A stretch of DNA of 64,000 nt from the NCBI GenBank assembly GCA_029309925.1, contig JARKND010000005.1, forward strand, positions 1 through 64,000. Reading direction: 5' to 3'. Below the pieces are notes generated by a model. It ran no database searches, was not told the DNA's origin, and saw only the letters and a list, made by a program, of their open reading frames with translations. Both the position numbers and the translations under genes were made by a program. The stretch comes from Fulvivirgaceae bacterium JP3-4 (lineage in GTDB: Bacteria > Bacteroidota > Bacteroidia > Cytophagales > Cyclobacteriaceae). Below, in pieces: positions 30,309 through 44,698 of this stretch (position 1 is the stretch's first letter; every line of letters starts with the position of its first letter).

Positions 30309-31352
30309 ATGCAATCCATGCTACATCGAAACCGGGTTATTCTGGTTCACATTTCTTTCTGGTGCGTCTACCTGTCGTTTTTCTTTTATACCATCAGTAA
30401 TTTCAGACATGGACGTGACATAGACTGGGGCAAAGCAACTGCAAACGGTTTCGTACAGCTTGTGGTAACAATGATCATTGCGTACCTCAACTATTTCATC
30501 TTCCTGCCCAGGTTTCTTGCACACAAGAAGGTGTGGCGTTATCTCCTTGAATTTCTGATTCCCTTTGTCGTGCTGATCACCGCGCGCATTCATCTGCAAC
30601 GTTTTCTGATCGATGGCTATACTTATCAGCGCATGCACTTTTACTCTACATTCTATATAGTAGAGGTTTGTGTGATCACGCTCTTCATCGCCATATTCGT
30701 TTCAATGCTTCGCTTTGCAGCGGATTGGTTTGAACTTGCTGCCAGACAGAAGGAAATCGAAAATGAAAGGCTGACCGCTGAGTTGAATTTCCTCAAGGCC
30801 CAGATCAATCCTCATTTCCTGTTCAACACGCTGAACAATCTCTACTACCTCGCATACACGCAATCGGCAAACACAACGGAGGTGATCGCAAAGCTTTCCC
30901 AGATGATGCGCTACATGATCTACGACTCCAACTACCTTCAGGTACCGTTGAGCAAAGAGATCGAGTACATGCAAAACTATGTTAGCCTCGAGCGATTGCG
31001 ACTCAACGACCAGATCCCAATCTCTTTTTCCGTACAGGGAAGTACGGAAGGTGTGTTGATCGCTCCGCTCATATTCATAACATTTCTGGAAAATGCGTTC
31101 AAGCATGGTGTGAGCAACAATGACAAAAATGCGTTTGTAAAACTGTCGCTTACGCTGGATGGTAAAGAATGCATTTATACTGTCGAGAATAGTAAGCTCC
31201 CTTCCACGAAGCCGGAAGCTCAAGAAAAATCCGGGATCGGGTTGCAAAATGTGAAAAGAAGGCTCGAACTTAGTTACCCGAACCGGTATACGCTCGAAAC
31301 CGAAGACAAGCCGGATCGCTATTCCGTTCGCCTGAAACTTACGCTTACGTGA
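30309..31352 (+). CDS. LytS-type sensor histidine kinase
   Basis: A 347-residue kinase of the His_kinase (LytS/YehU) group. Four transmembrane helices occupy about 10-140 with very short loops, so the sensor lies within the membrane. A coiled coil leads to the phosphorylation motif with His169 in NPHFLFN, followed by the ATPase domain (FLENAFKHG, GIGLQN). It overlaps the LytTR regulator gene by one base (TGATG) and is divergent from the large beta-barrel gene. Confidence 0.92.
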   Translation: MQSMLHRNRVILVHISFWCVYLSFFFYTISNFRHGRDIDWGKATANGFVQLVVTMIIAYLNYFIFLPRFLAHKKVWRYLLEFLIPFVVLITARIHLQRFLIDGYTYQRMHFYSTFYIVEVCVITLFIAIFVSMLRFAADWFELAARQKEIENERLTAELNFLKAQINPHFLFNTLNNLYYLAYTQSANTTEVIAKLSQMMRYMIYDSNYLQVPLSKEIEYMQNYVSLERLRLNDQIPISFSVQGSTEGVLIAPLIFITFLENAFKHGVSNNDKNAFVKLSLTLDGKECIYTVENSKLPSTKPEAQEKSGIGLQNVKRRLELSYPNRYTLETEDKPDRYSVRLKLTLT

Positions 31353-32080
31353 TGCAGCACACTTGCCTGATTGTAGAAGATGAACCGCTTGCGCGGAATT
31401 TGCTGACGGAGTACGTCAAAAAAGTTTCGTTTCTTAATCTGGTGAAGGCATGCTCCAATCCGATGGAAGCACTTGAGGTATTGCGCACAAATCCTGTTGA
31501 CATCCTTTTTCTCGATATTCAAATGCCGGAGATCACAGGCATCACGCTGCTGAAGATCCTGCAAAAAAAACCGATGGTGATTCTTACCACGGCCTATTCT
31601 GAATATGCACTCGAAAGTTACGAGCTCGATGTAGTGGATTACCTGCTCAAGCCGATCACATTTGACAGGTTTCTGAAAGCAGTGGATAAAGCTTCCCAGC
31701 GATTGACATCTCCGGCTCCGGCAATGGCGATCCCGGATAAAATGCAGACAGAACAGTCGCCTGATTTTGTGTTTGTTAAAGACGGAACGAAGCTCGTGAA
31801 AATTGTTTTCGATGACATTCTTTATGTTGAAGGCTTAAAAGATTATGTCACCATCCACACGAAGACGCAAAAGGTAGTGACGCTGCAGCGGTTGAAATCT
31901 TTGGAAATGCAATTGCCGGCAGACAAATTTATCCGCATTCACCACTCTTTTATCATTGCGCTCAAGGCGATCGATGTCATCCACAAAGGCGAAGTGCAGA
32001 TCGGCAACGCCATGATTCCCATCAGCGACAGCTATAAAAAAGCTTTTAAAGATCTGATCGACAAAAACCAGATGCAGTAG
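31352..32080 (+). CDS. LytTR family response regulator
   Basis: A 242-residue regulator. The receiver domain (1-120) has phosphoacceptor Asp55 in FLDIQMP. The LytTR DNA-binding domain (about 140-240) shows the VEGLKDYVTIHT strand and the IRIHHSFII segment. I chose the ATG at 31352, which overlaps the kinase stop by one base, over the GTG at 31349. It pairs with that kinase; the divergent beta-barrel gene is a possible target. Confidence 0.93.
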   Translation: MQHTCLIVEDEPLARNLLTEYVKKVSFLNLVKACSNPMEALEVLRTNPVDILFLDIQMPEITGITLLKILQKKPMVILTTAYSEYALESYELDVVDYLLKPITFDRFLKAVDKASQRLTSPAPAMAIPDKMQTEQSPDFVFVKDGTKLVKIVFDDILYVEGLKDYVTIHTKTQKVVTLQRLKSLEMQLPADKFIRIHHSFIIALKAIDVIHKGEVQIGNAMIPISDSYKKAFKDLIDKNQMQ

Positions 32081-35513: not shown

Positions 35514-35520
35514 CACATTG

Positions 35521-35550
35521 AAAGCCACTTATGATAAGTGGCTTTTTCTT
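35521..35550 (+). terminator. Terminator of tRNA-Val(TAC)
   Basis: An 11-bp perfect stem (AAAGCCACTTA/TAAGTGGCTTT, 35521-35531 and 35535-35545), a 3-nt loop and a T-rich tail. It begins 8 bp after the tRNA. Confidence 0.9.
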
Positions 35551-35573
35551 TTTATATATGATCGCGCGCTGAC

Positions 35574-35667
35574 GGGGTTCGAAACCGAACGAAGCGATAG
35601 CGTAGTGAGGTTCACGAGGGAAAGTGCGCATGAAGGCGCGGACGAGTAATCCCTCAGCTCCCACACA
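35574..35667 (+). repeat. Interrupted duplicate of the tRNA-Val(TAC) 3' end
   Basis: GGGGTTCGAA at 35574-35583 repeats the T-arm bases 35490-35499. About 64 bases later a 20-nt segment at 35648-35667 is identical to 35498-35517, the T stem and acceptor of the tRNA plus the bases after it. The 20-mers are exactly 150 bp apart. It is a tRNA remnant split by an unrelated insert, and it is followed by its own terminator. Confidence 0.75.
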
Positions 35668-35676
35668 TAATCCATC

Positions 35677-35702
35677 AAAGCTGCACACAATGCAGCTTTT
35701 TT
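35677..35702 (+). terminator. Terminator after the tRNA remnant
   Basis: A 9-bp stem (AAAGCTGCA/TGCAGCTTT, 35677-35685 and 35691-35699) with a CACAA loop and a T run. It stands 9 bp after the tRNA remnant, the same arrangement as at the true tRNA but with a different stem sequence. Confidence 0.85.
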
Positions 35703-35878
35703 GTTTTATGATACTTCCCTATCCTGTACTCGGCATCGGATATCCTCAAAGAATGCGATATTTTTTCGGCACGATCTCCTACAAAAAAACGGCATGCTCA
35801 TACAATAAACACACTACTTTCCGATCTATCGGTGTTGCTTCCCGAGTTTCGTTGTGTAATCATCAAACCCCCATTATC

Positions 35879-36586
35879 ATGAAACTCTACATCCTTGTTT
35901 CAGCGTTATTTCTTTTCCTTCCGTTCCGATGTAACGACAACCCGCCCGATCCACCGCCTGCCACCCCGACTTACACGCTGACCGTACACGGCCGCGACAA
36001 TTGTATACTGCTCAACACTTCTGTCGCTGTACCTACGGGTATCAGCCCAGGTTCATTTCCTGTGACGGTAAGTGGTGACGCCTTTTTTGCTCCAGGCGCG
36101 AGTCACAAAAACGTCTTCCTTCGCTATTCTGGTTCTGACGATGATCACCTTGCTATGCTTCCGATCGGTGGAACAAGAACATTGGGACTTCGGGCAGGAA
36201 AGATGTTTGCCTTCTTTGCCGACTGGTCTGATATCAATGACAACTCTGGCGATGCATTCGTGTCGTTTGGGAACACTTCCATTACCGTGAACGGAAAAGA
36301 CAACTGCATCTTTCTGGACAACAGTGTTGCCGCAAGAACTACAATCCCGGCTGGGGTTTACAAAGTAAAAGTCACGGGCAACGCATACTTCGCTCCTGAC
36401 GCCACACACTACGATGTACTGGTGCGCTATGCAGGCACTGCTGACGATGAACTTGACATTCTCCCGATTGGCGGTGAAAAAACACTCAGCCTTCGAAACG
36501 GTTATGGATTCTATGCATTCTTTGCCGACTGGGATAACATTGACGACAATAGTGGGACCGTAACACTTGAATTCTATAAACAATAA
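35879..36586 (+). CDS. Secreted protein with two tandem lectin-like domains
   Basis: A 235-residue protein. A signal sequence ends near Cys18 (FLPFRC), possibly a lipoprotein site although the lipobox is not canonical; a Pro-rich spacer follows. Two repeats of about 95 residues (about 35-130 and 135-233) share xDNCIxL, FAPxAxHxxVxxRY, LPIGG and FFADWxxIxDNSG. The acidic DxxxDNSG end resembles the calcium site of PA-IL-type galactose lectins, which is a suggestion only. The ATG at 35879 was chosen because it starts the signal peptide. The LytTR/kinase operon follows. Confidence 0.7.
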   Translation: MKLYILVSALFLFLPFRCNDNPPDPPPATPTYTLTVHGRDNCILLNTSVAVPTGISPGSFPVTVSGDAFFAPGASHKNVFLRYSGSDDDHLAMLPIGGTRTLGLRAGKMFAFFADWSDINDNSGDAFVSFGNTSITVNGKDNCIFLDNSVAARTTIPAGVYKVKVTGNAYFAPDATHYDVLVRYAGTADDELDILPIGGEKTLSLRNGYGFYAFFADWDNIDDNSGTVTLEFYKQ

Positions 36587-36614
36587 TGTCTATGGTGATC
36601 AGTGATGCGCATGC

Positions 36615-36646
36615 TTTGGTAATGTAAGCGAATAACCATAAATTCG
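36615..36646 (+). promoter_or_regulatory. Promoter of the LytTR/propeller-kinase operon
   Basis: TTTG (36615-36618), 20 bases, then TAAATTCG (36639-36646), one mismatch from TAnnTTTG. It ends 18 bp before the response-regulator start codon. Confidence 0.5.
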
Positions 36647-36664
36647 GTAACCAACCTCAGGGTC

Positions 36665-37429
36665 ATGCTGTCACTGCTCACCGCCCTTGTTGTAGACGAT
36701 GAAGAGAAGGCCGTAATCCTTTTAAAGAAATTACTGTCTGACACGAACCAGTTTTCCGAAATCCGCTCGGCAACATCGTGTATCACTGCATCACACGAAA
36801 TGAAATCATTTGATCCTGACCTGATTTTCCTTGACATCAACATGCCAGGAATGAATGGCATTCAGTTTCTGAAAAACCTCCTGCAGCAAAAAGTCAGGTC
36901 GGAAATTATTTTCGTTACTGCATTTGATCAATATGCCCTCGAGGCGATCAGGAATCACGCCTTCGGATACCTTCTGAAACCCGTGAGCAGAAAAGAGCTC
37001 GCAGATTGTATTGTACACTTCAGGGAGCATCGCAGATCGGACGAAGAGGCATCGCGAATACAGAAACTCATCGCTGAGTTGAAAGGTCAACACAGGCTTC
37101 GCATCAGTACGCGATCGGGTTATTATTTCATCGACCCGAACGACATTCTTTTTTGCGAGGCAGATGGCAACTATACGCGAATTGAACTGGGTGACCGCAA
37201 TTACCTTTGCACATTGCAACTGGGCGTTTTGAAAACATTGTTACCGGCTCAGTCATTTGTGCGCACGGGCCGGTCCCTGATCATCAACTACAATAAGATT
37301 CGCAACGTTGACAAGAAAGCCCACCTTATCAACTTCGAAAAAGGAGCCCTTGTCCTGCCACTGAAAGTATCGCGGTCTCAATTGAAAGATCTTGAAACCG
37401 GGATGGCACATGAATCGATACCTCAGTAA
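36665..37429 (+). CDS. LytTR family response regulator
   Basis: A 254-residue regulator with a receiver domain (1-125; phosphoacceptor Asp57 in FLDINMP, lysine in YLLKPVS) and a C-terminal LytTR DNA-binding domain (about 145-245; CEADGNYTRIEL and VRTGRSLIINYNKI). It is the partner of the propeller kinase that follows; the two genes overlap by 20 bp. The secreted two-domain gene upstream is a possible target. Confidence 0.92.
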   Translation: MLSLLTALVVDDEEKAVILLKKLLSDTNQFSEIRSATSCITASHEMKSFDPDLIFLDINMPGMNGIQFLKNLLQQKVRSEIIFVTAFDQYALEAIRNHAFGYLLKPVSRKELADCIVHFREHRRSDEEASRIQKLIAELKGQHRLRISTRSGYYFIDPNDILFCEADGNYTRIELGDRNYLCTLQLGVLKTLLPAQSFVRTGRSLIINYNKIRNVDKKAHLINFEKGALVLPLKVSRSQLKDLETGMAHESIPQ

Positions 37430-39494
37430 GTTCCTTACCTCCACGTTCCTGTGGGCATTGATCCCGACTGTCATTGTCTCATTCTTCGTTCGTGACATCG
37501 GCACTCCATATATATTATCTCAGCAGTCGGGGCTTATTCAGAAAGAAGATCAGATCTTTTTCCACGATCTCAACGGTGATGGAACGACTGAACAAATCCA
37601 TTCAAAGCCGGGAGAGCCACTGAACAATTTGCCCATTATGACCAACGATGGCAAGTACTACGATCAGTGGAACGTGGGTGAAACGTTTGTGCCGGAAATT
37701 TCAGAACTGATTTTCGGTGACTATGACCATGATGGGCTTTCAGAGATCTACGTCTTTTCTATGAATCGCGACACCATCTTTCTGAATGCACTTGAAGCGT
37801 TCGACTCATCGGGCTTGCGTCTAAGGAGGCACTACGTCACTGTGGTGAACCTTGTTGAGGGCCAAAACAACTCGGTCATCAAACCGGTCGGATTTTTTGA
37901 TTACGATAAAGATGGTTTTAAAGAATTCTATTTTGCCATCACGACAGGCTTCGGTCTGTGGCCCCGCAACTGTTATCTCTTCAACCTGAAAACGCTCAAA
38001 CTCTTTACCAGCGCATCATTCGGGGTAAACTTCGACAAACCAACTTTCGCAGATCTCGATAATGATTCGGTACCGGAAATTATCACGTCATCAAGTTCAC
38101 CTGGAAATCAAAAATCAAAACAACCCTTGAGTGACCGGAGTGCATGGCTGATGGTGCTGGGTCCAAATCTCGAATTTATTTTTCCGCCTCGCGAATTCTC
38201 AGGATTTGGAGGCCGCATTGATGTTGAACCCTTAAAGGCAGCAGGAGGAAGCAATCTGCTGGTCATCTACAATTACAGCGGAAGCAAGACACCTGAGGTC
38301 CCACCCGGCTTCCAAATTTTTAGCCGCGAAGGAAAACGCGTTGCAGAAAAATCCTTTGCTTCGATCGGTTTGCAAAAAGCGATGCCGATAATCGTCACAG
38401 ACAAAGAGCGGAAAGAATTTGCGATGCTTTCAAACCGGGTCTCAGTCTTCAATTCCAATCTTGAAATCATCAGGTCGATATCATTGCCGTTCTCATCTGA
38501 TTTCACTTTCCGGCTTGTGGATCTGACCGGGGATGGCAGCAATGAAATATTTTTATATTCAGCAGCAGAAGGCAGGCTGGTCCTTTGTACGAGCAACTTC
38601 GCAGTGATGAGTGTGCTCGACATAGACTTTCCCGAAGGCGCCTGGACCGTGTCCGTAGTCAGAGAGCAAGGGGAGCTCAACCGCATCCATATTCGTTCCG
38701 GTGAGAAGCAGTGGAACATTACCCTGGAGGGAAATCCGGCCTATTTTTTCCGACACGCGATCTATGCTGGCATTTATCTCGGATTTTTCGTGCTGATCCT
38801 TATCACAAGAAGGATAAGTACCGCGCAGGTTAAAAAGCAGGAGGCGCTAAAAAAGAAATTGCTCACCCTTCAGCTGCAAAGTATTAAAAGCCAGCTCGAC
38901 CCGCACTTTACGTTCAACGCACTTAACTCCATTTCATCTCTTCTTTATATGGACGACCGCAAAACTGCGTACGATGCGCTCAACATCTTCACCAGGTTGT
39001 TGCGGCAGCTTCTCAACGATGCCGATAAGGTGTTTCGTCCGCTGCGAGAAGAGCTGGAGTTTGTAACCCGGTATCTCGAACTCGAAAAAATCAGGTTCAG
39101 TCATTTTAAGTATGCGATTGACATGGCAGATAATGTGTCCGGGGATGAGCTCATCCCCAAAATGGCTGTGCAACTATTTGCCGAAAACAGCATCAAACAT
39201 GGTTTAGTACCAAAGGGAAAGGATGGATTTCTTTCAATAAGGGTGCACCGAACGATCAATACGCTCGTACTTACAATTGAGGACAACGGTATTGGACGAA
39301 AGCAGTCAGCGTTGGAGAGCACGGCTCATGGAAAAGGGATTAAAATAAATAATGACTTCTACGAAACACTTTCGCAGCTGACAGGAAAAACTGTTCAGAC
39401 AAAATTCACCGATTTATATGATGAGAAGGGGAATGCTGAAGGAACGAGGGTTGAAGTTTTTATTCCGATCGATGCACAACACAACTTCAATTGA
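37410..39494 (+). CDS. Sensor histidine kinase with FG-GAP propeller sensor
   Basis: A 694-residue kinase. A membrane helix (about 5-25) is followed by a periplasmic region of about 410 residues with at least five FG-GAP/VCBS-type calcium repeats (LNGDGTTE, YDHDGLSE, YDKDGFKE, LDNDSVPE, LTGDGSNE). A second helix (about 445-467) leads to a coiled coil and a LytS-type His_kinase domain with His499 in DPHFTFN and an ATPase domain (FAENSIKHG, DNGIGR). The ATG at 37410 overlaps the regulator by 20 bp. An integrin-like propeller as a kinase sensor is uncommon. Confidence 0.85.
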   Translation: MNRYLSKFLTSTFLWALIPTVIVSFFVRDIGTPYILSQQSGLIQKEDQIFFHDLNGDGTTEQIHSKPGEPLNNLPIMTNDGKYYDQWNVGETFVPEISELIFGDYDHDGLSEIYVFSMNRDTIFLNALEAFDSSGLRLRRHYVTVVNLVEGQNNSVIKPVGFFDYDKDGFKEFYFAITTGFGLWPRNCYLFNLKTLKLFTSASFGVNFDKPTFADLDNDSVPEIITSSSSPGNQKSKQPLSDRSAWLMVLGPNLEFIFPPREFSGFGGRIDVEPLKAAGGSNLLVIYNYSGSKTPEVPPGFQIFSREGKRVAEKSFASIGLQKAMPIIVTDKERKEFAMLSNRVSVFNSNLEIIRSISLPFSSDFTFRLVDLTGDGSNEIFLYSAAEGRLVLCTSNFAVMSVLDIDFPEGAWTVSVVREQGELNRIHIRSGEKQWNITLEGNPAYFFRHAIYAGIYLGFFVLILITRRISTAQVKKQEALKKKLLTLQLQSIKSQLDPHFTFNALNSISSLLYMDDRKTAYDALNIFTRLLRQLLNDADKVFRPLREELEFVTRYLELEKIRFSHFKYAIDMADNVSGDELIPKMAVQLFAENSIKHGLVPKGKDGFLSIRVHRTINTLVLTIEDNGIGRKQSALESTAHGKGIKINNDFYETLSQLTGKTVQTKFTDLYDEKGNAEGTRVEVFIPIDAQHNFN

Positions 39495-39556: not shown

Positions 39557-40309
39557 CTATTGCACTTTCATTCCTTCCGCCAGGTTTGTGCGGATGCTGG
39601 CCATCAGATTAATGGGTGATATCAGATCTTTTTCTTTCCTGTAACGATAGTAGTTGTTAAATGCACTTCTGAAACGCCTTTCAAAATTGATAGCTTCTTT
39701 CCCGCTCGGGTCATCAATGTTATGCCCGATGAAATTCGGATTTGTTGAAGCGCTGTTGTAATGACATCTGTAATATTTGATATAGCTGGAAAGATTGCGC
39801 ACTTGATAGGAGACATGACCAAATTCATGCGCAAGAATCCAAAGTGACTTCTTTGCAATACAGACGGCAACACTAACGGTTCGGTCTCCATAAACCGAGT
39901 TGTAAGTGTCTTCATCCGAGATTGAATGTGCCAATGAAGTCGTTCCCTGAGCTTGTACACTAGCGTCTTCTATTGGAATAAACTTTACATAGACGTCCGT
40001 TACGCAGCCGTTGATATCGGTCAGGGAGTTTATGTGGTGATAAAGGTCTGGAGCGATTTCTTTAAATTGATCGAGCATTTTTTCAGTCATCTCATAACAC
40101 GTGAGGAACTTCATCAACCGCTGAATCTGCAATTTCAATTTCTTTTTCTCGGACCTTGATAAGTTTTTTTCCATTTGCAAAATTTCGCAAAGCCGTTGTA
40201 ACGACATTCGGTGCGCAGTCATCTCTTGTTCATATCCGTTTTTTATCTCCGGGTAAACGCTAACAGGAGCGGCAGCATACAAGCAAAGAAAAATGCATAG
40301 TGCTTTCAT
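39557..40309 (-). CDS. Secreted HExxH metalloprotease-like protein
   Basis: A 250-residue protein with a signal peptide (about 1-18) and the zinc motif HEFGH at 161-165. The motif is preceded by KSLWILA, as in zincins, and followed about 30 residues later by DPSGKEAINFE, which could provide the third ligand. No family is recognised. It is probably periplasmic or secreted. It is convergent with the propeller-kinase gene and lies downstream of the hybrid two-component system with a 276-bp gap, so it could be a target of that regulator, without direct evidence. Confidence 0.7.
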   Translation of the reverse strand: MKALCIFLCLYAAAPVSVYPEIKNGYEQEMTAHRMSLQRLCEILQMEKNLSRSEKKKLKLQIQRLMKFLTCYEMTEKMLDQFKEIAPDLYHHINSLTDINGCVTDVYVKFIPIEDASVQAQGTTSLAHSISDEDTYNSVYGDRTVSVAVCIAKKSLWILAHEFGHVSYQVRNLSSYIKYYRCHYNSASTNPNFIGHNIDDPSGKEAINFERRFRSAFNNYYRYRKEKDLISPINLMASIRTNLAEGMKVQ

Positions 40310-40585: not shown

Positions 40586-43500
40586 CTACGGCAACCTCAC
40601 ATTAGCCTTAATGTAATTACCGGGTGTTACACCAAACTGCTCTTTAAAACAACGATTGAAGTACGACACATTTGAAAACCCAACGCTGTAAGCGATCTGC
40701 GCAATTGAGTCAAACTTTTTTGACAGTAGATCCGCTGCACGTTTCAGGCGTATGGTGCGCAGGAATATGCTGGGTGTTTGTCCTGTGAGTGCTTTGATTT
40801 TACGGTAAAACTGAACTTCGCTATAGCCGACCTGTCTTGCGAAATCTTCAATGGAAAAGTGTTCATCATCCATATGCGTTTCGATGATCGATAATGCATT
40901 TTGAAGAAATTTCTCATCCATCGAAGAAACGGAAACGTGCCTCGGTTCCAATGTAATTTCCCTGGCATATCGCTCCCGCATTTTGCGTTGTTCATCTATT
41001 CTGTTTCTGACGATAAGCCTGAGTTCATCTTCATCGAATGGTTTCGACAGATAATCATCCGCGCCAATATCGAGCCCTGTAAGAACGCTTTCCCGTTCAA
41101 CGCGTGCTGTAAGCATAATGACCGGAATGTGACTGGTAATGCGATTGCTCTTTACAAGCTTACACAATTGATAGCCGTCCATCCCTGGCATCATAACATC
41201 AGTAATGATCAAATCAGGTATAATCTGTTCGGCTAGGGCAAGGCCTTCGGTTCCATTTACCGCATGACTGATCGAATAACTCTGCAGGGTCATTGCCAGA
41301 TAGTGACGCATGTCCGAGTTGTCTTCAACAATAAGAATTTTTGGTGAGTGCTCATCGTGTTGAATTTCGTTCGCAGGACTAACCTCAAGGGTCGTGTTCT
41401 CTGAAACAACGATGTCTGAATATGCGACTTTGCGAGGCAGGTCGTATACAATGTTCTTTTCAGCGAAATGATCTTTGCCAAGGAGCAGGCTAATTGTAAA
41501 TGTTGAGCCCGAGCCCAACTTGCTCTGCACCGTAATGCTGCCGCTATGCAACTCCACCAGCTCCTTTGCAAGTGACATTCCGATGCCGCTGCCTTCATAG
41601 CTCCGAATGTTAGAATTGTCAACCTGGTAAAACCGGTCAAATATTTTACTTTGCTCTTCTTCGGAGATCCCAATGCCATCATCCTTGATATTAATAACGC
41701 ATTGTTTGGCAGTAACATTCACATGCACAATTATTTCGCCTCCATTGGGAGTAAACTTGAATGCGTTTGACAGAATGTTATGGATGACAGTCTCGATTTT
41801 TTCTTGATCGATGTAAACAATTAGTTCATCGGCTTCTGAATAAAAGACGAGCCGCACCTGGCGGCTATCAGCCAGGGATTGATATGATGATAAAATATTT
41901 CGAAGTACAAGAATGATGTTTGAAGGTGATACTGTCACTTTCATTCGTTTCGCATCAATCTTACTTAGATCGAGTAAATGATTGACAAGTGAAAGAAGCC
42001 GTGTACCATTGTTCTTCATCATGATGAAAATCTTCCGATCTCTATCATCAGTAGCTTTCGCAATCAGGTTGTTGAGAGGCGCCAGGAGTAATGTTATCGG
42101 TGTTCGGAATTCGTGAGAAATATTCGCGAAAAATCGACTTTTCAAACTGTCCAGTTCAAGGAGGTTTTCCGCACGATGTTTTAATTTAATGCGGTTGAGA
42201 TCATACTTCCGCCACCCTATCAGTAACGCAAGCAGCACCAAAGCGTAACCCAGATATGCCCACCATGTTTTCCAGGGAGGAGGAAGAATTATGATACGGA
42301 GCGTTTGCTCTTTCTCACTCCACCTTCCGTGATGATTCGAGGCGGATATTCTGAACAGATATGTTCCCGCGTCAAGATTTGTATAGGCTGCCTTTCGGTG
42401 ATTCCAGTCTGTTTCAATCCAGCCGTTGTCGAAACCCTCCAGTCGATAACGATATTTATTTTTCCTTGGAGCGGTCATTGACATTCCGGAAAACTCCAGG
42501 GCAAAATTGTTGTGCTCGTAGTCAAGAACGAGTTCATCGAGAAGCGTGATCTCCGAAGCAATCGCAAAATCGGAATCATTTGGCGCAGCTCTACCAACCA
42601 CTTCACGATGATTGACCTCAAGTTTCGTTATGATCGGCTCAGTTGCGTTGCCGCTGGTTTCAAATGAAGCCGGATCAATAACGGAAAATCCATCCGCACC
42701 GGCTGCAATGATTAGCCCGGATTTTGTTTTTAATAGCCAATCGATTTCCTGTATTCCGGTCAGGTGATTAAAACCATCCTCCGTTGAAAATTCTGTCATA
42801 GTAGAGTTATCCGGATTGAAGCAGGAGATTGCACCCTCAGCGTACAGCCAGAGTCTGCCAGTGTCATCATCCATAATATTGACGACTCGCAGATCTCGGA
42901 TCACAGGCTTGGGATCAAGGTAAAAGCTGTCGCTAGTCTGAGTAACGCGGAATAGCCCCCTGTTCGATGATAAATAGCGGATACCATTTCGCGCCCGATA
43001 AAAAATGGAAGCCCGTTGCGGAGTCTTGACAACGGCTAACGACTTGCCGCTATCAGTAGGTATTGTTCCTATTCGCCTTAACGTACAAGTCATGTCGCTG
43101 AGAACCCACATCGATTTTTCATCTTCCGGATATATGTAGGTGCCGTGTAACCTTGATCCATACCTGATGACACTTTCCTTACGTCCATACGGTACACCGG
43201 TGTTGATGCGCTCTATTCCGTTACCCTGGGTAAGAATCCACAGATTTTCCTCGGCATCTTCAAAAAGGTTTCCGATCCCATCCATACTGATGGTGTTTAT
43301 GTTATTGGGGTCATGTTTGAATGTGATAGCGTTCTCTTGCTTTATCTTACCTGTTATCTGGTCGATCGGATAGCCGATGATTCCTCCCCAGAATGGAACA
43401 ACCCAAAAATATCGCTTCCCCTGGAGCATCTTGATTATTGGCCGTTCAAACCTTGGTAAGATCGGTTGAAAGGATAAGGCTTCAGGCCGTTTGTCATCAA

Positions 43501-44698
43501 GCTTTGCAATTTCAATCTGCTTCTGCGCTGAAGCCCAATTCGCCATCATTAGATACTGCACACCTTCCCGATCGGTAAAAATAGTTGCTGACCAGATCAT
43601 GCCATTCATGACCTCGTGATTTATGACACGAACCTCTTGTCGTTTTAATTTGCTAATTCCTCGATCCGTTCCAACCCACACGTTCTGTTCCCGATCAACG
43701 ATGACATCATAAACCATGTTAGACGGTAATGAATTAGGATCGGTTGGGTCGTGAGTTATTTTTGTAAATGTTGTGTCACGTGTGTCGAACTTATACAGCC
43801 CGTCATTCGAGCCCCATTGGCTTGGGTACCAGAGCACGCCATCTTTATCACATGCAGCATTCGCTGGTACAACTTTCTCTGGCAAATCCAGCTTTTGAAG
43901 AATCGAGAACTGATCATCAATCTTCAAAAAATGATGTTGTGTTATAATCCAAATGTGTTTGTCGTGCTGCGTTGCCGGGTTTATAAAACCTGTAACATTC
44001 AAACCATTAAATAGCAGCGAATCTTTCGCAGGAGGGCGCAAGAAATATTTCCGCTGTTTGTCGAACAGCCAGAGTCCATCACCAGAAGTACCAATGAGTA
44101 AATAGTGTCCAAATTGTTTCATTGCCGAAATCGATTTGCCCGGCCGTGTCGCATAAGACGCTACCGAATCCATTGAGGTCAACTCCTGGTTTTTGAAATC
44201 ATACAGAAATAACCGCTTGTTGTCAGTGGCTATCCATATCGCTGCTCCATTGTTTTCATACAAGTACCTGACTTCAATGGCACCCGGTAAGTCAAACTCG
44301 TATTTTACAAAACCATCGGTCGTTCTATTGTATCGGATTATGTTTCGCTTTCGGCCTTTAATAGGCCTCCTGTCAGGAATTGAAATTTCATTGGTCGGAT
44401 CTTTTAAAATAAAACCCAGGGGTGAGGTCAAAACCTTCCTTAGCGAATCGGTGGCATCATGTTGATATGTCTTAAAGCTGTAGCCATCGAAACGGGACAA
44501 TCCACCATAATAAGCTATCCAGATGAAGCCGAGGCTATCTTGCTTAAGTCGATCTGCGAAATTATTTAACAGCCCGTCCTTTCGGTCGAAATTTTCAAAT
44601 CTGTAGTTAGACTGGTGTAAAGCTTGAGCGACAACAGGAGACTCTAAAAGCCATAAAAATCCAAAAAGCAAAAAGACGTTTATTGCTTTGGGTTGCAT
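40586..44698 (-). CDS. Hybrid two-component system sensor/regulator
   Basis: A 1370-residue single-chain system. In order: signal peptide (1-25), two seven-bladed Reg_prop propellers (about 30-710), a Y_Y_Y domain (about 730-795), a transmembrane helix (about 810-830), HisKA (ISHEFRTP near 867), HATPase (GIGISEEE, GSGIGMSL), a receiver (about 1105-1215, TDVMMPGMDG) and an AraC-type HTH (about 1260-1365). Such proteins bind oligosaccharides in the periplasm and switch on polysaccharide-use loci. No SusC/SusD or glycoside hydrolase genes are near, so it is an orphan here. Confidence 0.93.
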   Translation of the reverse strand: MQPKAINVFLLFGFLWLLESPVVAQALHQSNYRFENFDRKDGLLNNFADRLKQDSLGFIWIAYYGGLSRFDGYSFKTYQHDATDSLRKVLTSPLGFILKDPTNEISIPDRRPIKGRKRNIIRYNRTTDGFVKYEFDLPGAIEVRYLYENNGAAIWIATDNKRLFLYDFKNQELTSMDSVASYATRPGKSISAMKQFGHYLLIGTSGDGLWLFDKQRKYFLRPPAKDSLLFNGLNVTGFINPATQHDKHIWIITQHHFLKIDDQFSILQKLDLPEKVVPANAACDKDGVLWYPSQWGSNDGLYKFDTRDTTFTKITHDPTDPNSLPSNMVYDVIVDREQNVWVGTDRGISKLKRQEVRVINHEVMNGMIWSATIFTDREGVQYLMMANWASAQKQIEIAKLDDKRPEALSFQPILPRFERPIIKMLQGKRYFWVVPFWGGIIGYPIDQITGKIKQENAITFKHDPNNINTISMDGIGNLFEDAEENLWILTQGNGIERINTGVPYGRKESVIRYGSRLHGTYIYPEDEKSMWVLSDMTCTLRRIGTIPTDSGKSLAVVKTPQRASIFYRARNGIRYLSSNRGLFRVTQTSDSFYLDPKPVIRDLRVVNIMDDDTGRLWLYAEGAISCFNPDNSTMTEFSTEDGFNHLTGIQEIDWLLKTKSGLIIAAGADGFSVIDPASFETSGNATEPIITKLEVNHREVVGRAAPNDSDFAIASEITLLDELVLDYEHNNFALEFSGMSMTAPRKNKYRYRLEGFDNGWIETDWNHRKAAYTNLDAGTYLFRISASNHHGRWSEKEQTLRIIILPPPWKTWWAYLGYALVLLALLIGWRKYDLNRIKLKHRAENLLELDSLKSRFFANISHEFRTPITLLLAPLNNLIAKATDDRDRKIFIMMKNNGTRLLSLVNHLLDLSKIDAKRMKVTVSPSNIILVLRNILSSYQSLADSRQVRLVFYSEADELIVYIDQEKIETVIHNILSNAFKFTPNGGEIIVHVNVTAKQCVINIKDDGIGISEEEQSKIFDRFYQVDNSNIRSYEGSGIGMSLAKELVELHSGSITVQSKLGSGSTFTISLLLGKDHFAEKNIVYDLPRKVAYSDIVVSENTTLEVSPANEIQHDEHSPKILIVEDNSDMRHYLAMTLQSYSISHAVNGTEGLALAEQIIPDLIITDVMMPGMDGYQLCKLVKSNRITSHIPVIMLTARVERESVLTGLDIGADDYLSKPFDEDELRLIVRNRIDEQRKMRERYAREITLEPRHVSVSSMDEKFLQNALSIIETHMDDEHFSIEDFARQVGYSEVQFYRKIKALTGQTPSIFLRTIRLKRAADLLSKKFDSIAQIAYSVGFSNVSYFNRCFKEQFGVTPGNYIKANVRLP

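Follow-up and report, generated by a model that had tools for sequence, protein, structure and literature searches.

In the genome of Fulvivirgaceae bacterium JP3-4 (5.8 Mb), the gene for a small exported protein stands directly before the genes for a LytTR response regulator and for a histidine kinase with calcium-type loops in its sensor, which raises the question whether these three genes form one sensory system and what the sensor and the exported protein would contribute to it. The trio lies in a stretch of 64,000 nucleotides that was analyzed as a whole and is called the window here (contig JARKND010000005.1, positions 1 to 64,000).

Gene arrangement and the kinase/regulator pair

The positions of the three genes (Table 1) and the 20-bp overlap of regulator and kinase were exactly as claimed in the original prediction, with the kinase ATG at 37410 and the regulator stop ending at 37429. 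The gene of the exported protein is located 5' of the other two on the same strand, and the 78-bp gap that follows it contains no terminator-like site. The G+C content of the trio genes is ordinary relative to the window. A promoter scan at the trio gave results at chance level, and no regulator-binding site was demonstrated there.

Table 1. Positions of the trio, its domains and related elements (window coordinates unless a locus is named)
Feature	Location	Strand	Basis or description
Tandem-domain exported protein	35879..36586	+	235 aa; 64% identical homologue beside the G1009 kinase
First tandem domain, residues 32-132	35972..36274	+	AlphaFold2 model
Second tandem domain, residues 133-235	36275..36583	+	Domain alignment
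LytTR response regulator, receiver and LytTR DNA-binding domain	36665..37429	+	Pfam
LytS-type histidine kinase, 694 aa	37410..39494	+	TM1 - VCBS/FG-GAP propeller - TM2 - His_kinase/HATPase
Periplasmic sensor, kinase residues 31-445	37500..38744	+	Five DxDxDG-type loops, hydrophobic segments either side
tRNA-trailing element	35515-35710; L060 (G133), reverse strand; G000:C5:869360-869519; G000:C1:775412-775449		
One-component regulators	L037:644-2344; L038:7350-9044; L039:7649-9289		Helix, VCBS-type propeller, helix, LytTR

In Pfam searches, the regulator matches the receiver domain (PF00072, 86.3 bits, E 2e-24) and the LytTR DNA-binding domain (PF04397, 65.0 bits, E 7e-18). On the basis of its match to His_kinase (PF06580, 73.7 bits against a cut-off of 25.2) and of the H-box LDPHF at residue 496, the kinase is classified as LytS-type; its match to HATPase_c (25.7 bits) is slightly below the cut-off of 26.4. 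It is not a canonical LytS protein, as it possesses only two hydrophobic segments (residues ~8-31 and ~446-469) and no LytS multi-helix membrane-sensor domain was found in Pfam at E<=1, nor is it a hybrid two-component system (HTCS) protein, since Reg_prop, Y_Y_Y and AraC matches are absent from its Pfam results. The kinase core with its LDPHF H-box, the receiver and LytTR output and the overlapping genes are thus shared with LytS/LytTR two-component systems, whereas the sensor of the window kinase is a periplasmic VCBS propeller placed between two helices.

The propeller sensor and its relatives

The sensor scores above the Pfam cut-offs of both FG-GAP_3 (PF13517, 41.8 bits against 26.9) and FG-GAP (24.4 against 22.1), and by these matches is assigned to the VCBS/FG-GAP_3 type of propeller. 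Counting with the pattern D-x-[DNT]-x-[DNGS]-x3-[DEN] gave five DxDxDG-type loops (residues 53, 104, 164, 215 and 371), whereas 20,000 shuffles of the sensor contained 0.22 loops on average and three at most, none reaching five. The prediction of a LytS-type kinase with FG-GAP-type calcium repeats between two membrane helices was therefore borne out by Pfam and by the loop count. The loops are 51, 60, 51 and 156 residues apart, the last distance being about three times 52, and from this spacing we infer a fit to seven blades, two of them with degenerate loops. The blade number is thus a reading of the spacing, the single-sequence AlphaFold model of the sensor being unusable (pLDDT 35).

Propellers of the integrin type are defined by the FG-GAP/Cage motif (PMC3192720). 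Since neither strict nor relaxed residues gave a Cage pattern in the sensor, and a GAP tripeptide is absent as well, VCBS-like (PF13517) is a better name for it than integrin-type; what had been described as an integrin-like propeller is indeed a sensor of the FG-GAP/VCBS type, but is not integrin-like in the strict sense. Together with the integrin and tachylectin propellers, those of the VCBS type make up a single supercluster, to which the fungal lectin PVL, a sugar binder, also belongs (PMC8023676). With VCBS/FG-GAP propellers (PF13517; PVL and the alpha-integrins among them) the window protein shares DxDxDG loops every ~50-60 residues, and it differs from them in serving as a kinase sensor and in missing the integrin motif. 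Bacterial propellers of this kind are widespread and mostly unexplained, and a propeller that forms the clear input domain of kinases or one-component regulators offers a route to its ligand, because signalling gives a readout. A search of the open-access literature (subscription papers being outside its scope) found no paper joining FG-GAP, histidine kinase and LytTR, and none on a sensor kinase with propeller and calcium together with FG-GAP. In the PDB, the sensor profile matched PL11 lyases and a protein related to hemolysin, but only weakly and in the DxDxDG loops (E 0.02-0.1). Nothing was found for the sensor in the viral contigs searched, and the scan of contigs for the kinase returned nothing beyond weak FG-GAP matches, at E about 1e-5, in MAGs of Acidobacteriota. 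In a separate search, the viral fold library yielded no specific match and none at E<=0.001.

A three-sequence profile of the sensor detected homologues, complete or partial, in 12 of the 397 genomes of the GTDB family, that of the window included. A LytS kinase with a LytTR regulator is found in the window, G1009, G975, G080 and G072, and probably also in G1001, where the locus is cut by the contig end. G912 combines the LytS kinase with a LuxR-type regulator, while in G820 a PAS/HisKA kinase is followed, at a contig end, by a receiver protein that is NtrC-like by sequence. In G865, G807 and G825 the sensor continues directly into a LytTR DNA-binding domain, without a kinase. In G081 the homologue runs into a contig end. 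The three fusions correspond to membrane one-component regulators (TTRs; PMC10269533), unlike the window system with its separate kinase and regulator.

The fusions are also followed by lipoprotein genes, one of them putative. Directly after that of G825 (L039) a lipoprotein with a laminin-G/concanavalin-type domain is encoded (E 8e-20). The lipoprotein after the G865 fusion runs off the contig at LLAWYPFN, a stretch resembling the start of what is probably another laminin-G-type domain, and the G807 fusion is followed by a putative lipoprotein of 103 amino acids. These loci invite a wider reading, in which calcium-loaded VCBS propellers would be modular membrane receptors of this Bacteroidota family for glycans or surface contact, connected to LytS/LytTR, LuxR, NtrC or direct LytTR outputs and in several cases accompanied by a lectin-fold lipoprotein (PA-IL-like in the window and G1009, laminin-G-like in G825 and probably G865). 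We consider this generalization rather unlikely; the lectin-fold theme was spotted post hoc on few loci and does not amount to a test.

The sensors of nine genomes can be aligned for the greater part of their length; 14 columns are invariant, loop residues among them, and the other eight sensors are 19-41% identical to that of the window. Among the residues invariant in all nine, F102, D121, P185, R186, N233, D242 and G308 (37410-38822) lie outside the loops and may mark a shared ligand-binding or signalling face. The loop positions recur in most relatives, and some relatives are without individual loops and have the same architecture. Both observations bear on the idea that the propeller itself is the calcium sensor, with occupancy of the DxDxDG loops switching the kinase. 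Five loops at positions conserved in most relatives would agree with such a switch, but the corresponding sites of integrins are said to have a structural role and to be permanently filled in the extracellular space (PMC3192720), and the loss of single loops in relatives left the architecture intact. We regard a calcium switch as very improbable; the calcium in the propeller would more likely be structural than a signal. The gene beside the kinase/regulator pair of G975 (L034:4635-6845, minus strand) encodes a secreted protein in which FG-GAP_3 occurs six times, along with HYR and a type IX sorting domain.

The tandem-domain protein

The exported protein encoded upstream consists of two tandem beta domains of ~100 amino acids, which are 53% identical over 99 residues and both end in D-W-x4-D-N-S-G, in agreement with the original prediction of two similar domains ending in DNSG. 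No Pfam match was obtained at E<=1, and no convincing sequence relative is present in the PDB. The protein had been described as small and secreted; export is upheld, and the description can be refined, as Cys18 is invariant in the window protein and its homologue in G1009 (239 amino acids) and aligns with the canonical lipobox LASC of the latter. The cysteine is followed by QELEED in G1009 (LASC-QELEED) and by NDNPPD in the window protein (PFRC-NDNPPD), whose lipobox is non-canonical. The exported protein is thus probably a lipoprotein. Surface-exposed lipoproteins of Bacteroidota carry the LES, an acidic export signal after the lipobox cysteine (PMC5080379).

A resemblance to the calcium lectin PA-IL (LecA) had also been suggested. 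The first domain was modelled with AlphaFold2 from no sequences other than the two window domains, and the model reached moderate confidence (pLDDT 72, pTM 0.66). Among the 50 PDB matches listed by Foldseek, the three highest TM-scores (0.62, 0.58 and 0.58) were those of LecA/PA-IL entries, lectins with a jelly-roll beta-sandwich fold, the best being 2vxj, and PllA and the N-terminal domain of EclA were also listed. The E-values for PA-IL were 0.006 or worse, no PDB fold match reached E 0.001, and cupin, GOLD and GGCX folds scored against the model as well. The PA-IL family (PF07828) was matched neither by the whole protein at E<=1 nor by any of the four domains of the window and G1009 proteins at E<=10. 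A search of the entire genome for PF07828 had no match either, but is uninformative, as it gave none in any control genome. D84, D90, N91, S92 and G93 (numbering of domain 1) are invariant in all four. The D-x5-D-N-S-G loop that they form is similar to that of EclA-N, where D114, D121 and N122 are the calcium ligands, and EclA-N illustrates that such a domain can retain calcium yet lose galactose binding (PMC11875179). In contrast to the PA-IL lectins, the window domains have ~100 instead of ~120 residues, their aspartates are spaced one residue closer, and they occur in tandem in a putative lipoprotein. The PA-IL idea is thus reasonable at the level of the modelled fold and unproven as homology; membership of the family is not supported by sequence. 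If the lipoprotein truly has the PA-IL fold, this lectin fold would extend to the envelope of Bacteroidota and be tied there to a dedicated regulator.

All three genes recur in G1009, which belongs to a different genus, and the lipoprotein is better conserved (64% identity) than the regulator (54%) and the kinase (45-46%). The gene order is lipoprotein-regulator-kinase in the window and regulator-kinase-lipoprotein in G1009, where regulator and kinase overlap by 4 bp and the lipoprotein gene starts ~290 bp downstream of the kinase. The first window domain is 63% identical to the first domain of the G1009 protein and 51% to its own second domain; since first domains match each other best, the duplication predates the split between the two lineages. 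The lipoprotein was found in no other genome of the samples searched, which overlap (397 of the family, 63 of the genus of G1009, 292 of the order and 396 of the phylum), and weak matches were inspected and judged unrelated. Those in G001, G040, G362 and G345 turned out on reading to be fasciclin-type lipoproteins, a large outer-membrane-type protein and an unrelated open reading frame. Searches of plasmids, phages and viral contigs for the lipoprotein gave nothing.

In these samples the lipoprotein was therefore seen only in the two genomes with a close kinase and never without that kinase, whereas the kinase/regulator pairs of G080, G072 and G975 are without it. The original prediction, which offered a calcium- or glycan-dependent surface-sensing circuit as a possibility, had counted absence of the secreted gene beside other kinase pairs as evidence against it; such absence applies to these three loci, while the survey of the neighbourhood also showed the trio retained in G1009 with rearranged order. 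The lipoprotein is thus not obligate to the sensor family, and the partnership looks real because the trio recurs in one other genus with different gene order. The link of lipoprotein and kinase is real and confined to one branch, the sensor tree being too divergent to say more.

Proposed function and genomic surroundings

We propose, with about equal expectation of being right and wrong, that the locus encodes a LytS/LytTR system with a calcium-stabilized VCBS propeller as sensor and its own partner lipoprotein, which is likely a target of the regulator. Architecture, topology pattern, tandem domains, gene overlap and recurrence of the trio are read from the sequence; the steps concerning ligand and regulation are inferred from these. 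The propeller would bind a ligand in the envelope or at the surface, either protein or glycan, and thereby alter the activity of the kinase, which would phosphorylate the LytTR regulator. The regulator would in turn control nearby genes, most likely including that of the lipoprotein. The latter would be exported and anchored in the envelope, where its two PA-IL-like domains may hold a ligand through calcium, for example a sugar.

Alternatively, the lipoprotein could act as an accessory sensor: having captured the ligand, either at the surface or within the periplasm, it would pass it on to the propeller, in the manner of the auxiliary binding proteins that serve other kinases. Tight adjacency in both genomes despite the rearrangement, the leading position of the lipoprotein gene in the window with its uninterrupted gap to the regulator, and the two repeated domains, which suit multivalent binding, are in line with such a role. 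However, sensors of the same family occur in other genera without the lipoprotein, a surface-exposed lipoprotein, if it is one, could not touch a periplasmic propeller, and the long region upstream of the G1009 lipoprotein gene would better suit a target under its own regulation. A role as accessory sensor is accordingly possible but stays well short of an even chance, and because the G1009 lipoprotein gene has its own long upstream region we prefer the lipoprotein as target of the regulator.

A further possibility is that the lipoprotein is a bystander that moved with regulator and kinase in a mobile or variable segment beside a tRNA-Val gene and has no functional link to them. Neither of the two available congeners (G085 and G133) has the trio; they carry other genes around the same tRNA-Val(UAC) gene and thereby place the trio in a variable stretch, and a duplicate of the tRNA 3' end is found just upstream of the trio. 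Yet gene order and context differ in G1009, for which co-transfer of a single segment is no simple explanation, and no homologue of the lipoprotein was seen apart from the kinase. We therefore judge mere co-transfer improbable and retain a functional partnership, with the lipoprotein as the likely regulator target.

In the window, the tRNA-Val(UAC) gene is followed by a terminator and then by an element which starts with the T-loop-like GGGGTTCGAA and ends in 21 bp identical to the 3' end of the tRNA, after which a second terminator is found. Three tandem copies of ~170 bp follow the same tRNA-Val gene in G133, and none in G085. A similar element after a tRNA-Cys gene of the same genome copies the T-arm of tRNA-Cys instead. 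The element has the look of a repeat that trails tRNA genes, its core conserved and its ends specific to the tRNA in question. Near the trio, the window further encodes a hybrid two-component regulator (40586-44698, minus strand) that combines Reg_prop, Y_Y_Y, HisKA, receiver and AraC domains. Together with type IX sorting domains in genomes of the family, this HTCS provides grounds from gene content for placing the genome in Bacteroidota. An exported protein of 250 amino acids (39557-40309, minus strand) is a possible zinc peptidase; it contains AHEFGH, which fits the HExxH motif, and matches nothing significantly in Pfam. A second pair, kinase/LytTR-like by its sequence, is located 3 kb upstream of the trio (30309-32080, plus strand), and a similar pair lies directly upstream of the same tRNA-Val gene in G085.
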